A stretch of 64,000 nucleotides of DNA, from contig NC_013665.1 of assembly GCF_000011005.1 (NCBI RefSeq), positions 372,001 through 436,000 of the forward strand, written 5' to 3'. Origin of the DNA: Methanocella paludicola SANAE. Lineage in GTDB: Archaea; Halobacteriota; Methanocellia; Methanocellales; Methanocellaceae. Under the pieces are notes generated by a model, which saw nothing but the letters and a program-made list of their open reading frames with translations, was not told where the DNA came from and did no database searches. Positions 1 to 36,781 of the stretch are shown piece after piece. The first letter of the stretch is position 1; every line of letters starts with the position of its first letter. The position numbers and the translations under genes were made by a program.

Positions 1-2304
1 ATCAAGACCATCAAGGACTTCGTCGCCGACTACAAGGACGAGATGGACAGCATCAAGGGCCTCATCGAGCAGTTCAAGAACGACGCGGAGCACGTCACGC
101 CCCAGGAGGCCAAGCTCATCAAGGCCGGCCAGTACCTGAAGGCCCAGATCGACCAGGTCAACAACACGTTCGGGGACCTGGACGAGCGGCTCTCGGCCGT
201 CCGAAAGGAATTCATCAATCTCAACAACATCGAATACCGCTACCGTGCGCTCGAGGATAACCTGAACGCCATGGAGCGGAACCTCGAGAACAAGATCGAG
301 GTGGAGATGATCACCCGCGTGCGCGAGGCGGAGAACGACCTCGTGGTGAAGATCAGCGGCGTGGAGGAGCGCGTGCTCCAGCAGAGCAAGGCGTCCCACG
401 AGACGATAAAAGCGCTACAGGACATGCAGACGGCCACAGTGGGCCTGCTAAGGCAGACCCAGTCCGACGTGCTCGGCTCCGTTACCGACGTCAAGTCGGA
501 CGCGGTCAAGTCGGTCACAGAGGCCGTGAACGAGGCCGCCGGCAACATCGAGGCAATGAAGGCCAGGGCCCAGGAGTTCATCCGGACCACCGAGTCCGAG
601 GCGACGTCCACCATCAGGTCGGTCGAGGCCGATGCCGTTGGCAACATCCAGAAGAAGCGCCAGGAATCGCTGGCCGAGCTCAACGAAAGCTCCGAACACG
701 TCGCGGGCGTTGCGAAGACCACCAGAGAAGTGGTCGAGGGAGCGCTCCGCGCTACTCGCGACGATACGCTCAAGTCCATCGACTCGGTCAAGGGCCAGTC
801 CGTGAACGAGATCACGGCGGTCAAGAGCCACGCGATGGAGGAGATGACCACCTTCAAGAACGACACCCTCCACGAGGCCAGCGCGCTGAAGGTGACCACG
901 CTGAGCGAGATCGCCGCGGCGAAGGAGCAGGTCACCGCCGATGTGGAGGCCATGAAGGCCGATTCGACCGGCCGGGTCAACGTGCTCAAGCAGGAAACTA
1001 TTAATGAAGTCCTGTCGCTGAAGCAGGGTACGATTAATGAGGTCACGTCCCTTAAGGAGGGCACGGTGAAGGACCTCGTCTCCCTCAGGAACGAGACATT
1101 CGCCGGAGTACAGTCGCTGAAGCAGGGTACGATTAATGAGGTCACGTCCCTTAAGGAGGGCACGGTGAAGGACCTCGTCTCCCTCAGGAACGAGACATTC
1201 GCCGGAGTAGAGTCGCTGAAGCAGGGCACTGTCAGTGAGGTCGCCGCGATGAAGGAGCAGGCCATCGCTGAAGTGAACGCCACGAAGGGCGACACGATCG
1301 ACCAGGTCCAGTCGCTGAAGCAGGGTACGATCAATGAAGTCCTGTCGCTGAAGCAGGGTACGATCAATGAGGTCATGTCCCTTAAACAGGGCACTGTCAG
1401 CGAGGTCACGTCCCTGAAGGACGGCACGATAAACGAGATCACGGAAACAAGGGACACTGCGGTCGCCACGATGAAAAAGAGCCGCGACGAGGTCCTGGAC
1501 GCGGTCGACGAGTCCAGGGAGAACGTGATGGAGACGGTAAAGACCCTGAACACGGTGTCGAAGCAGGCGGACGAGGAATACTCGAAGCTCTCGGCCAGGG
1601 TCGACCAGGAGGCCAAGTCGACCATGAACCAGATCAGGACCGAAGTCCTCGCCTCCATAAAGCAGGAGAAGGACGGGCTGTCCGGCGCGATCGAGGCCCA
1701 GAAGAAGGACGCCGTCGACGACATGTCGAAGTTCAAGGACGGGCTCATCGTAGCGCTCCGCCAGACCGAGTCCATAGTGCTGTCATCCACGGATAACGCG
1801 CGCATCGTCGCGGAGAAGTCGATGGCGAAGACCAGGGACGAGATCCTGGACACCATCCGGCACACCCGCGAAGATACCATCAAGAAGCTCCTGGACACCA
1901 GGGACGTGGTCATAGCGGCCTCGAATAACTCGAAGGAGGCCGCCCTGGAGGAGCTGTTCAGGTCCCGGGACGAGACCATCAAGGCCATGAAGGAGTCGAA
2001 GGCCGGCATGCTCGAGACCGCGAAGACCGCGAAGGCCACCACCGAGTCCTCGATCAAAGCGACCAGGGACGAGGCGATCAAGGCCATGAACGAGTCGAAG
2101 GCGAGCATGCTTGACACGGCGAAGACCACGAAGACGACGACCGAGTCCTCCATGCTCTCGACCAGGGACGAGGTGCTCAAGCAGCTGAAGGCCACGCAGA
2201 AGGAAGTCGAAGACTCGATCAACAAGAAGATCGACGCGGACAAGGAGAACACCGAAAAGATCAAGCAGATCATGAAGACGATGAACGAGCTCATCAAGGC
2301 GTGA
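1..2304 (+). CDS. Long alpha-helical protein built of 11-residue repeats (5'-truncated by window)
   Basis: The frame is open from base 1, so the gene begins upstream; the first ATG inside the window is at 43. No enzyme domain is recognised. From about residue 230 to the C-terminus the protein is almost entirely 11-residue units such as LKQGTINEVTS, LKEGTVKDLVS and LRNETFAGVQS, later TRDEAIKAMNE-like units. Such hendecads form right-handed coiled coils or long amphipathic helices. It has no signal peptide in view, no Cys and few aromatics. The next gene overlaps or abuts it and shares its C-terminal module, so they are probably co-transcribed partners. A structural, scaffold or membrane-surface role is inference only. 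Confidence 0.85.
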   Translation: MKTIKDFVADYKDEMDSIKGLIEQFKNDAEHVTPQEAKLIKAGQYLKAQIDQVNNTFGDLDERLSAVRKEFINLNNIEYRYRALEDNLNAMERNLENKIEVEMITRVREAENDLVVKISGVEERVLQQSKASHETIKALQDMQTATVGLLRQTQSDVLGSVTDVKSDAVKSVTEAVNEAAGNIEAMKARAQEFIRTTESEATSTIRSVEADAVGNIQKKRQESLAELNESSEHVAGVAKTTREVVEGALRATRDDTLKSIDSVKGQSVNEITAVKSHAMEEMTTFKNDTLHEASALKVTTLSEIAAAKEQVTADVEAMKADSTGRVNVLKQETINEVLSLKQGTINEVTSLKEGTVKDLVSLRNETFAGVQSLKQGTINEVTSLKEGTVKDLVSLRNETFAGVESLKQGTVSEVAAMKEQAIAEVNATKGDTIDQVQSLKQGTINEVLSLKQGTINEVMSLKQGTVSEVTSLKDGTINEITETRDTAVATMKKSRDEVLDAVDESRENVMETVKTLNTVSKQADEEYSKLSARVDQEAKSTMNQIRTEVLASIKQEKDGLSGAIEAQKKDAVDDMSKFKDGLIVALRQTESIVLSSTDNARIVAEKSMAKTRDEILDTIRHTREDTIKKLLDTRDVVIAASNNSKEAALEELFRSRDETIKAMKESKAGMLETAKTAKATTESSIKATRDEAIKAMNESKASMLDTAKTTKTTTESSMLSTRDEVLKQLKATQKEVEDSINKKIDADKENTEKIKQIMKTMNELIKA
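1014..1209 (+). repeat. Tandem direct repeat, 99-bp period, inside the hendecad gene
   Basis: Bases 1014-1110 and 1113-1209 are identical or nearly so. The 99-bp period equals 33 residues, that is three 11-residue units, so the reading frame and helix phase are kept. This indicates recent expansion by slippage or recombination. Confidence 0.9.
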
Positions 2305-2309
2305 TCCCC

Positions 2310-2936
2310 ATGGACTTCGAGAAGTACATAGGCAAGGAGAAGCCGCTCTTATCCCGGCTGGACCGGGACAGGGCGTCCCTGAACGCGTACGAGCGCAGGG
2401 GCAACGCGGGAACGCTCGACATCGCCGAGGACGAGCTCAAGCTGCTCGACACGCTGAAGCAGGTGAAGGAGCACATCGCGGCCGCCGAGGCGGCGTCGAA
2501 GGCCCTGGACGAGCGCGCCCAAAGATTAAAAGAGCTCGAGGAGTCCGTCAACAGGAAGGGCGCCCAGACCCAGAAGCGCATCGAGGAATGGGAAAGCTCG
2601 TTCGACGATAAGTACAACGTGCTGCTGAAGCGGGTCGAGGACGAGGTCGGGGCGCTGGAGCTTAGAAATAAGGAGCTCGTGGCGTTCATGAAGGCCCAGG
2701 AGGACATCTTCAACGCCCGCAGCGCCGAGCTCAGCAGCAGGGCGGACGCGTCCGAGGCGGGCATAAAGCAGGCCAGCGACAACGCCTACCAGGAGATGAG
2801 CGACATCCTCGTGTCCATGAAGAAGGCACAGAAGGAGTTCGAGACCTCCATAAGCGGCAAGCTCGACGAGGATAAGCAGACCATCGACCGCATCAAGTAC
2901 ATGCTGTCCACGATGAGTGACATTATTAAATCCTAG
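2310..2936 (+). CDS. Coiled-coil protein, partner of the upstream hendecad protein
   Basis: A helix-rich, charged protein of 208 residues from ATG 2310; a GTG at 2301 overlapping the upstream TGA is also possible. Its last ~38 residues (from KKAQKEFETSI to the end, TMSDIIKS) match the C-terminus of the upstream protein (from KATQKEVEDSI to TMNELIKA) in sequence and spacing, suggesting a shared association module. The middle is heptad-like coiled coil. No catalytic motif, signal peptide or membrane segment is seen. The tight junction with the upstream gene implies translational coupling. Function unknown; probably a heteromeric coiled-coil partner (inference). Confidence 0.8.
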   Translation: MDFEKYIGKEKPLLSRLDRDRASLNAYERRGNAGTLDIAEDELKLLDTLKQVKEHIAAAEAASKALDERAQRLKELEESVNRKGAQTQKRIEEWESSFDDKYNVLLKRVEDEVGALELRNKELVAFMKAQEDIFNARSAELSSRADASEAGIKQASDNAYQEMSDILVSMKKAQKEFETSISGKLDEDKQTIDRIKYMLSTMSDIIKS

Positions 2937-3592: not shown

Positions 3593-4240
3593 TTACGGCC
3601 CTTTTTTTTCCTCTACCCGGGGCTCCTCGCGATTCTTACGCCTGGTCATCAGGTATAGCGCACCCGCACCGATGACCAGGGCGGCAAGCAGCCACGGCAG
3701 CCAGCCCAGCGGGGATGACTGCGTCTTCTGGGCCATGGTGAATCCCGGCGGCATCATGACGCTATCGACCGGATATATTATCCCGTTCTTGCATTCGACG
3801 CCCTGGTTCAGGACCCTCGAGCCTCCGACCACGAGGCCTCCGTCCTTAATGTTAATGGGCAGCGTCTTGCCGTCGACGGTCTTGACGTCGGTCATCCTCG
3901 AGAGGTCCGCGAACGTCAGCCTGCCGGGCACGGCATGGTACTGCAGCAGGCTGCTCAGCCTCGGCTGGTCCTGCATCAGGGCATTGAGCTGGTTCTTCGG
4001 AAGCTTATCGAAGGCCGCGTTCGTCGGCGCGAACACCGTGAATTCCCCGGGCCCTTTCAGGACGTTGTCCAGGCCCGCCGCCCGCACGGCGCCCAGGAAC
4101 GTGGAAAACTGGCCTATGTTCGCCAGGTTTTCGAGCACAGTCCTCTGGCTCCCGACCTGCGCGTTAACGAAGGGGGCGGCCAGCCCGGCCGCCAGCGCCA
4201 GCAATAACAGTATCGTGATGTATTTCTTTATCCCACTCAT
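3593..4240 (-). CDS. Fasciclin (FAS1) domain surface protein with C-terminal membrane anchor
   Basis: Residues 1-27 form a signal peptide (KK, hydrophobic core, cleavage near VNA|Q). Residues about 34-165 are one FAS1 domain, with the typical segments FTVFAPTNAAFDKLP, LLQYHAVPGRL and NGIIYPVDSVMMPPG. Residues ~178-197 are a transmembrane helix followed by MTRRKN, giving an outside FAS1 domain anchored at its C-terminus. FAS1 domains mediate adhesion in other organisms; a cell-surface role is inferred. It converges with the L10e gene. Confidence 0.9.
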   Translation of the reverse strand: MSGIKKYITILLLLALAAGLAAPFVNAQVGSQRTVLENLANIGQFSTFLGAVRAAGLDNVLKGPGEFTVFAPTNAAFDKLPKNQLNALMQDQPRLSSLLQYHAVPGRLTFADLSRMTDVKTVDGKTLPINIKDGGLVVGGSRVLNQGVECKNGIIYPVDSVMMPPGFTMAQKTQSSPLGWLPWLLAALVIGAGALYLMTRRKNREEPRVEEKKGP

Positions 4241-35242: not shown

Positions 35243-36781
35243 ATTAAAAAACGAATATTCCTAGTCGCTGCAGTATGCGTCGTGCTACTGGCCAGCGCAT
35301 TGTTGGTAAATGCGAGCATACCGCTGACTAAGCCCTCCACGGATCTCAGCAGCGGCACCTATATTGTCGTTTTTAATGACAGCCAGGGCATGGCTGGCGC
35401 GCTGAGCGACCAGGTCTCTGCCTTCGCCGTCGAGAATAACGCGACGGTCAAATACAGGTATGACCTCATCAACGGCATGGCCATCGACGTCCCGACCGCC
35501 GACGCGGCCGCGAAGCTGAGCACTCTCAAGGGCGTGAAATACGTCGAGAAGAACATCGTATTCCACGTCACGCTCGACACGGGCAGGTCCATCGTCGGCG
35601 CCCCGCAGGTCTGGGACCTCGGGTACACCGGCAAGGGCATGAAGGTCGCCGTCGTCGACACCGGCATCGACGGCACCCATCCCGACCTCAAGGGCAGGAT
35701 CGTCGACTTCAAGGACTACGTTTCAGGCAAGACCACCGCCTACGATGACTTCGGCCACGGCACCCACTGCGCCGGCATCATCGGCGGCAGCGGCGCCGCC
35801 TCGAACGGCAAGTACAAGGGCGTTGCCCCCGAAGTCCAGTTCATCGGCGTCAAGGTGCTCGGCAAGGACGGCTCCGGAAGCCTGGACGCCATCATCGCCG
35901 GCCTGAACTATGCGGCCAAGAGCGACGCTAAAGTGATCTCGATGTCGCTCGGCTCGGACGAGCACTCGCAGTCCATGGACGACGCCGTTAACAACGCCGT
36001 AAAAGCCGGCAAGGTCGTCGTCTGCGCGGCAGGCAACAGCGGCCCTGGCTCGAAGACCATCGGCTGCCCCGCGGATACCCCCTCGGCCCTGACGGTCGGC
36101 GCCACCGACAAGAGCGATGCCATCGCTTCGTTCAGCTCCAGGGGCCCCAACAGGGACGGCACCGTCAAGCCCGACGTCAGCGCCCCTGGCAAGGACATCA
36201 TATCCTGCAGGGCCACGGGCACCAACGACCAGAAGGCCATCGACACCTACTACCTGTCGATGAGCGGCACCTCCATGGCCACCCCCATGGTATCGGGCTC
36301 CGTCATTCTGCTGCTGCAGAAGAAGCCGGACCTGACGCCCGCCGAGGTCAAGGACATCATGGAGAAGACCGCGAAGCAGCTCGGCTCCGGCGTCCCGAAC
36401 AATAACTTCGGCTACGGCAGGATCAGCATCGTCAACGCGATCAACTACCTGGACGGCAAGTATACGCCTCCGACCACCCCGTCGCCGACGCCAACCCCGA
36501 GCCCGAGCCCGTCTCCCTCCCCGTCGCCGAACCCCGGCAACCCGGGCAACCCCGGCTACCCTGGCTACCCGTACCCTGGATATCCGTATCCTGGCTACCC
36601 GTACCCCGGACAGCCGACCCCGACGCCTACGCCGACGCCCACGCCTGACCCGGGCAACCCCGGCTACCCTGGCTACCCGTACCCTGGATATCCGTATCCT
36701 GGCTACCCGTACCCGAGCTACCCCGGCTACCCGTACCCTGGTTACCCTTACCCGGGCTACTACGGCATTAGCGACGAATAA
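35243..36781 (+). CDS. Secreted subtilisin-like serine protease with Pro/Gly/Tyr-rich tail (ATT start)
   Basis: 512 residues. No ATG/GTG/TTG lies between the in-frame TAA at 35237 and GTG 35282, but ATT 35243 is 8 nt after a strong GGAGG and gives a textbook signal peptide (KKRIFLVAAVCVVLLASALL); GTG 35282 would cut it in half. A propeptide-inhibitor (I9) domain spans ~35-115. The S8 catalytic triad is D139 (VVDTGIDGTHPD), H172 (GHGTHCAG) and S344 (SGTSMATP). After residue ~410 comes a Pro/Ser/Thr linker and a PGYPYPGYP-repeat tail ending ISDE. Probably an exported or cell-wall-bound protease. Confidence 0.92.
   Translation: MKKRIFLVAAVCVVLLASALLVNASIPLTKPSTDLSSGTYIVVFNDSQGMAGALSDQVSAFAVENNATVKYRYDLINGMAIDVPTADAAAKLSTLKGVKYVEKNIVFHVTLDTGRSIVGAPQVWDLGYTGKGMKVAVVDTGIDGTHPDLKGRIVDFKDYVSGKTTAYDDFGHGTHCAGIIGGSGAASNGKYKGVAPEVQFIGVKVLGKDGSGSLDAIIAGLNYAAKSDAKVISMSLGSDEHSQSMDDAVNNAVKAGKVVVCAAGNSGPGSKTIGCPADTPSALTVGATDKSDAIASFSSRGPNRDGTVKPDVSAPGKDIISCRATGTNDQKAIDTYYLSMSGTSMATPMVSGSVILLLQKKPDLTPAEVKDIMEKTAKQLGSGVPNNNFGYGRISIVNAINYLDGKYTPPTTPSPTPTPSPSPSPSPSPNPGNPGNPGYPGYPYPGYPYPGYPYPGQPTPTPTPTPTPDPGNPGYPGYPYPGYPYPGYPYPSYPGYPYPGYPYPGYYGISDE
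36541..36714 (+). repeat. 66-bp direct repeat coding for PGY repeats in the subtilase tail
   Basis: Bases 36541-36606 recur at 36649-36714 (108-bp period, identical by eye), separated by a segment coding for PTPTPTPTP. The repeat codes for NPGYPGYPYPGYPYPGYPYP-type sequence, so tail length probably varies between strains. Confidence 0.85.

Follow-up and report, generated by a model that had tools for sequence, protein, structure and literature searches.

Among described systems, long cytosolic coiled-coil rods are represented by Scy of Streptomyces, a protein of 1326 amino acids with a non-canonical coil based on a 51-residue repeat (PMC3718342, PMC9858780). FilP is a shorter paralogue of Scy and self-assembles into striated filaments (PMC6599971). 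Hendecad (11-residue) coiled coils supercoil only slightly, and they put one core residue at the axis, a position that calls for either a small side chain or a higher oligomeric state (PMC9858780). Families such as MACH, in which proteins are predominantly made of hendecads, come from the survey of Martinez-Goikoetxea and Lupas (2023, J Struct Biol 215:108007), as it is cited in PMC11676326.

Here, we describe a two-gene locus of Methanocella paludicola SANAE that encodes a very long hendecad protein and a short paralogue of it. The window, i.e. the whole stretch of 64,000 nucleotides that was analysed, covers positions 372001-436000 of a genome that consists of one contig of 2,957,635 bp. The window protein may already figure in the hendecad survey. 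No assigned function was found for the two-gene unit.

Architecture of the long protein

The long gene runs off the left end of the window, which holds the last 767 of the 1494 residues of the intact product. The complete gene (L002:11820-16304) starts about 2180 bp upstream of the window, and its product begins with MGLFDRKPKK. Within the window the following features are found, all on the plus strand:

1-2304, plus strand: long rod protein, C-terminal 767 residues; the frame stays open upstream in its own genome
85-342, plus strand: core module (EHVTPQEAKLIKAGQYLKAQIDQ...EMITRVREAE), 86 residues, 87-97% identical across the four orthologues
385-1530, plus strand: hendecad run 1, 34.7 repeats without interruption (circular HMM/Viterbi and spectral test)
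1014-1226, plus strand: tandem duplication of a 99-bp unit (three hendecads), 99% matching
1531-1623, plus strand: slip zone with shifts of the 11-residue frame (circular HMM/Viterbi)
1624-2223, plus strand: hendecad run 2, 18.2 repeats (circular HMM/Viterbi)
1762-1953, plus strand: conserved C-module within run 2 (QTESIVLSSTDNARIVAEKSMAKTRDEIL...TRDVVIAASNN), 64 residues, 81-92% identical across orthologues
2161-2301, plus strand: tail module (EVEDSINKKIDADKENTEKIKQIMKTMNELI), common to the short partner and the ANME-2 homologues
2301-2936, plus strand: short partner, 211 amino acids, paralogue of core and tail; it starts with a GTG that overlaps the long gene's stop codon

The layout is the same in all four orthologues. 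A short start motif (MGLFDRKxKK) is followed by a flexible, proline-rich tether in which QKPILKP (QKPILKPNI) is conserved, a coil of 536-686 residues, the core module, the hendecad rod and the tail. The core module is the border between the heptad-like N-terminal coil, where periods near 3.5-3.6 dominate, and the rod, where a period of 3.667 sets in just past the module (4/4 orthologues). Homologues of the core module are found in ANME-2 proteins and in the short partner.

The modules evolve at very different rates. Between orthologues, the tail is 77-84% identical and, like the core and the C-module, highly conserved (80-91% for the three modules taken together), while the identity is only 19-40% (about 27%) in the rod and 29-36% (about 32%) in the N-terminal coil. 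The rods of the four orthologues, 636-732 residues long, are free of proline and acidic, with net charges from -19 to -37; if fully helical, they would measure about 94-108 nm. We found neither a TM segment (the highest 19-residue hydropathy mean is 1.21) nor a Walker A motif in the long proteins, and no hydrophobic signal stretch in the long protein. For the 767-residue window part, AlphaFold2 gives only a low-confidence helix (pLDDT 53), a model of too little quality for use. The MGLFDRK start motif was also searched for as DNA, as a lead to partners; it occurs once in the genome and gave no candidate.

In NCBIfam, the N-terminal coil is most similar to SMC, Rad50 and an archaea-specific SMC-related protein (ASRP), which could point to a nucleoid or SMC-like DNA organiser with long coiled coils but no ATPase head. 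However, these scores lie far under the cut-offs (54-113 against 300 bits for the archaea-specific model) and involve coiled-coil parts only. The Walker A motif that marks the ATPase head of SMC, Rad50 and ASRP proteins is absent, their curated scores are not reached, and the net charge is -43 to -80, so that we regard a DNA organiser as improbable.

An exact 11-residue period

The sequence-only reading of the window had described about 45 consecutive 11-residue repeats that begin near nucleotide 680. The repeat itself is real and the example 11-mers sit where they had been placed, but the array is longer and begins earlier, at about nucleotide 385, and contains some 55 repeats by circular HMM/Viterbi. 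In full-length numbering, 34.7 hendecads (amino acids 856-1237) are followed by a slip zone of 31 residues and another 18.2 hendecads (amino acids 1269-1468). In the orthologue G003 the two runs have 42.3 and 19.0 hendecads, and both the frame and the switch of periodicity at the core are seen in 4/4 orthologues.

The spectral power of hydrophobic residues over amino acids 856-1468 is 56.5 at 11/3 (3.667) and 1.0 at 3.6, and the maximum among 20,000 shuffles is 10.1. Hydrophobic residues do fall at fixed positions of the unit, as had been read from the letters. A heptad period had been named beforehand as the result that would overturn this reading; the power at 3.5 is 0.1. When a circular HMM is trained on the rods of the four orthologues, 11 states bring a gain of 1222 log units, compared with 359 for 7 states and 829 for 18. 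With 22 states, i.e. two hendecads, the gain is 1356 at the price of doubled parameters.

In the hendecad profile, position 0 is I/L/V/M, position 3 T/A/V, position 4 K/R, position 7 V/T/A and position 8 I/L/V. Two positions are strongly hydrophobic (87% and 69% I/L/V/M/F). The fixed basic position that had been proposed exists as a preference, with K/R in 70%. The small T/A residues at two positions of the core agree with the published rule on the packing of hendecad cores, and with the slight supercoil of hendecads a nearly straight rod is expected (PMC9858780). The period and the hydrophobic pattern together support, at the level of sequence, the proposed long hendecad coiled coil. Strict conservation of length modulo 11 was considered and rejected, as the spacing between anchors is not constant modulo 11 (489 and 507 residues in two species), which slip zones can explain.

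The 11-residue repeats are rich in T, A, E and K, as would be expected of a group-3 LEA-like stress protectant that is disordered until dried, and Methanocella inhabit soils that can dry. Such a protectant is nevertheless very improbable here, given the two strongly hydrophobic positions, the conservation of the core and tail modules, the existence of homologues in ANME-2 and the absence of LEA families from the Pfam matches up to E 0.1.

The same exact period could also belong to an amphipathic 11/3 helix that lies on a membrane or lipid surface, as in apolipoproteins, perilipins and synucleins, which the sequence-only reading had offered as its second option. Such a helix is expected to have basic residues beside the non-polar face and is usually neutral or positive. 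Here the rod is acidic, and the main K/R stripe runs inside the non-polar face, about 33 degrees off its centre, and does not flank it. The HeliQuest-type discrimination factor is about 0 in 4/4 orthologues, below the cut-off of 0.68, and the proline punctuation of lipid-binding repeats is absent. One orthologue, G001, does score above the gathering threshold of 90 bits for Pfam Apolipoprotein (PF01442; 121.3 bits, L013:4539-9422, residues 998-1184). However, the full-length protein of the window genome reaches 32.2 bits, and G003 has no match at 0.001. A database would therefore label G001 as an apolipoprotein. As the score varies among the orthologues from no match up to 121 bits while the rod sequence changes, we read the hit, as a matter of judgement, as shared periodicity and not common descent; the label of G001 would then likely be a mislabel by periodicity. 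The lipid-surface helix is thus disfavoured, and we consider it quite improbable.

Growth of the rod by whole hendecads

The DNA of the rods contains tandem repeats with periods of 33, 66, 99, 132 and 165 bp, all of which are whole hendecads, and these repeats differ in place and sequence from species to species. The 2.2 copies of the 99-bp unit in the window rod are a recent growth of the rod by three hendecads. The rod DNA has been amplified independently in each lineage in multiples of 33 bp, and it follows that selection acts to keep the 11-residue phase and not the sequence. In two species the short partner has a 33-bp array of its own, and a hendecad spectrum too.

In the N-terminal coil, the tandem units are 21, 42 and 75 bp (7, 14 and 25 residues), and the coiled-coil phase is likewise kept. 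The 75-bp repeats are found in the G002 orthologue (L014:10711-11102, gene on the minus strand), where they match at 85-96%; the unit of 25 residues (7+7+11) is another amplification unit that preserves phase. Elsewhere in the window, an ORF that by eye is a subtilisin-like protease (35282-36781) ends in a YPGYP run made of 15-bp tandem repeats.

A short paralogue in an adjacent gene

The long and the short gene are adjacent in 4/4 Methanocellales genomes, which belong to three genera. The start of the short partner that is aligned in its relatives is the ATG at 2310. Its similarity to the tail of the long protein scores 24-28 bits, with 11.4 as the best of 2000 shuffles, and it aligns with the core at the common ...EDEIKLLKAGxYV... 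motif (hhalign E 2e-5). AlphaFold2 models the short partner as a single helix (residues 6-210) with pLDDT of at least 90 for 155 of its 211 residues. This model fits a rod and is silent on what the helix would pair with. A sequence search of the PDB gave coiled-coil matches at E 0.02-0.04 only for the partner and none for the rod.

Upstream of the long gene, a conserved promoter-like, TATA-like element, ACAAA(A/G)TATATAT, is present at -75 to -92 in 4/4 Methanocellales (L002:11720-11820; L013, L014, L015), and a leader GGT(T/C)GGGA at -14, also in 4/4. The pair lies between apparent coenzyme F430 synthesis (cfb) genes on its 5' side and a ribosomal protein gene on its 3' side, both named by eye. 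Since gene order is conserved across the entire region, and the long and short genes have a promoter-like element of their own, adjacency to the cfb genes is weak evidence of a functional link. Further downstream (3593-4240, minus strand), an ORF was noted that by eye resembles a fasciclin-domain protein, with a signal peptide and, at its C-terminus, a membrane anchor.

Relatives and distribution

Profiles of the core and of the tail were run separately on 394 genomes of the phylum, and both recovered the same set, the four Methanocellales genomes plus two from a single ANME-2 genus. A denser search with the core found six genomes of that genus among 186 genomes of its order. The E-values of the profiles are not independent, because the profiles were made from the very sequences that they recovered; a single-sequence match to ANME-2 (E 1e-10) is independent of the profiles. 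Six other genomes gave weak matches to the core profile (E about 4e-4 to 1e-3), which we ascribed to coiled-coil noise; the tail profile had no match in the four of these genomes that its sample included. No relative was found in the viral contigs searched. In a wider scan of 84,980 species genomes, the distribution among the matches listed covers at least Methanocellales, sampled here by four genomes, and the one ANME-2 genus.

The complete ANME-2 homologues, which are distant, have a MxLFKK start, a proline-rich tether and the core, and then a very short rod before the tail; no second gene was seen adjoining them. From this comparison of sequences, the long hendecad rod looks like an elaboration in Methanocellales, although the rod may instead have been shortened in ANME-2. 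As the core and tail are kept there, neither the long rod nor the pair would be essential to the basic function. At two ANME-2 loci (L023:3110-4701 and L036:997-2636) the homologue adjoins two genes that look coiled-coil by eye, with a MCM-like helicase near, which is a possible functional neighbourhood.

Conserved ends joined by a fast-evolving rod of little-varying length could also mean a passive spacer or tether, which without polymerising would keep two machines some 100-200 nm apart, the first held through the N-terminal motif and the second through the tail or core. The very short rod of the ANME-2 homologues is compatible with such a role. On the other hand, the length of the N-terminal coil varies as well, the short paralogue suggests co-assembly and no candidate machine was identified; we therefore think a spacer rather unlikely.

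A candidate two-component scaffold

We suggest, with a probability of roughly 0.55, that the products of the two genes form a two-component coiled-coil scaffold in the cytosol, in which (i) long chains would associate through their hendecad core, (ii) long and short proteins would co-assemble, or cap each other, through the common core and tail modules, and (iii) the N-terminal motif and tether would fasten the rod to a partner. By analogy with Scy/FilP, the assembly might act in the cell as a filament, a bundle or an organising scaffold. This appears to be the best reading of the switch of phase at the core, the conserved ends against a fast rod, the amplification by whole hendecads and the steady rod length. 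The adjacent paralogous partner, the promoter-like element, the absence of TM segments and Walker A, the proline-free rod and the existence of an analogue in Scy/FilP fit it as well. The K/R stripe within the non-polar face counts against it, as this is unusual for a simple dimeric core. So do the low confidence of the AlphaFold2 helix for the window part and the ANME-2 homologues, in which core and tail persist with hardly any rod and no second gene was seen beside them.

More tentatively, the pair may represent an archaeal cytoskeletal system of long and short paralogues that arose independently of Scy/FilP from a short, ANME-2-like ancestor. In such a system the invariant ends would drive co-assembly, and the rod would be a self-renewing hendecad ruler, replaced repeatedly by amplification of whole repeats in the DNA while its phase and most of its length are kept.

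To our knowledge, only a few coiled-coil scaffolds with a structural role have been described in archaea. If the scaffold model holds, the pair would be an independently evolved archaeal counterpart of intermediate-filament-like or polarity scaffolds. The short rods of ANME-2 and the long, sequence-divergent rods of Methanocellales also form a natural series for testing how a rod grows with phase and length kept.

Comparison with known systems

The sequence-only reading recognised no described archaeal family. This agrees with the window protein, which stays under every Pfam and NCBIfam cut-off, but does not extend to its G001 orthologue, which passes that of Pfam Apolipoprotein. Apolipoproteins share the 11/22-residue amphipathic helical repeats, and differ in charge pattern and in the proline that the rod lacks. 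SpiroCoCo (NF047514/NF047515) are long prokaryotic coiled coils too; the scores are under the cut-offs (27.3 against 75 and 43.6 against 125 bits) and the matches are confined to the N-terminal coil. MACH-type families, compared here by their description alone, resemble the long protein in their predominantly hendecad make-up. Tetrabrachion of Staphylothermus marinus, as cited in PMC11676326, is an archaeal coiled-coil stalk with a non-heptad, right-handed periodicity; it is a surface-layer protein, whereas the long protein here has neither membrane segment nor signal stretch.

The long hendecad rod that characterises the DivIVA-like group (Scy, FilP, DivIVA, GpsB) is seen here in the period and the hydrophobic pattern, which predict a coiled coil. 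DivIVA itself gave no Pfam match up to E 0.1 in the protein of the window genome and none at 0.001 in the orthologues, and a simple GY....VD pattern for the DivIVA motif is absent from the long proteins. As the N-terminal DivIVA-like motif that precedes the coiled coil and defines the family was not detected, the pair is not classed as a member of the DivIVA-like family.

By design, and with no claim of descent, we take Scy/FilP as the nearest working analogue. Both systems have a very long cytosolic rod of mostly hendecad-type repeats with a heptad N-terminal part, a shorter paralogue and no enzymatic domain (PMC9858780, PMC3718342). However, the archaeal pair has a pure 11-residue period instead of a 51-residue repeat, the archaeal protein has a long proline-rich tether, and the archaeal paralogues have the core and tail in common and not the N-terminus.
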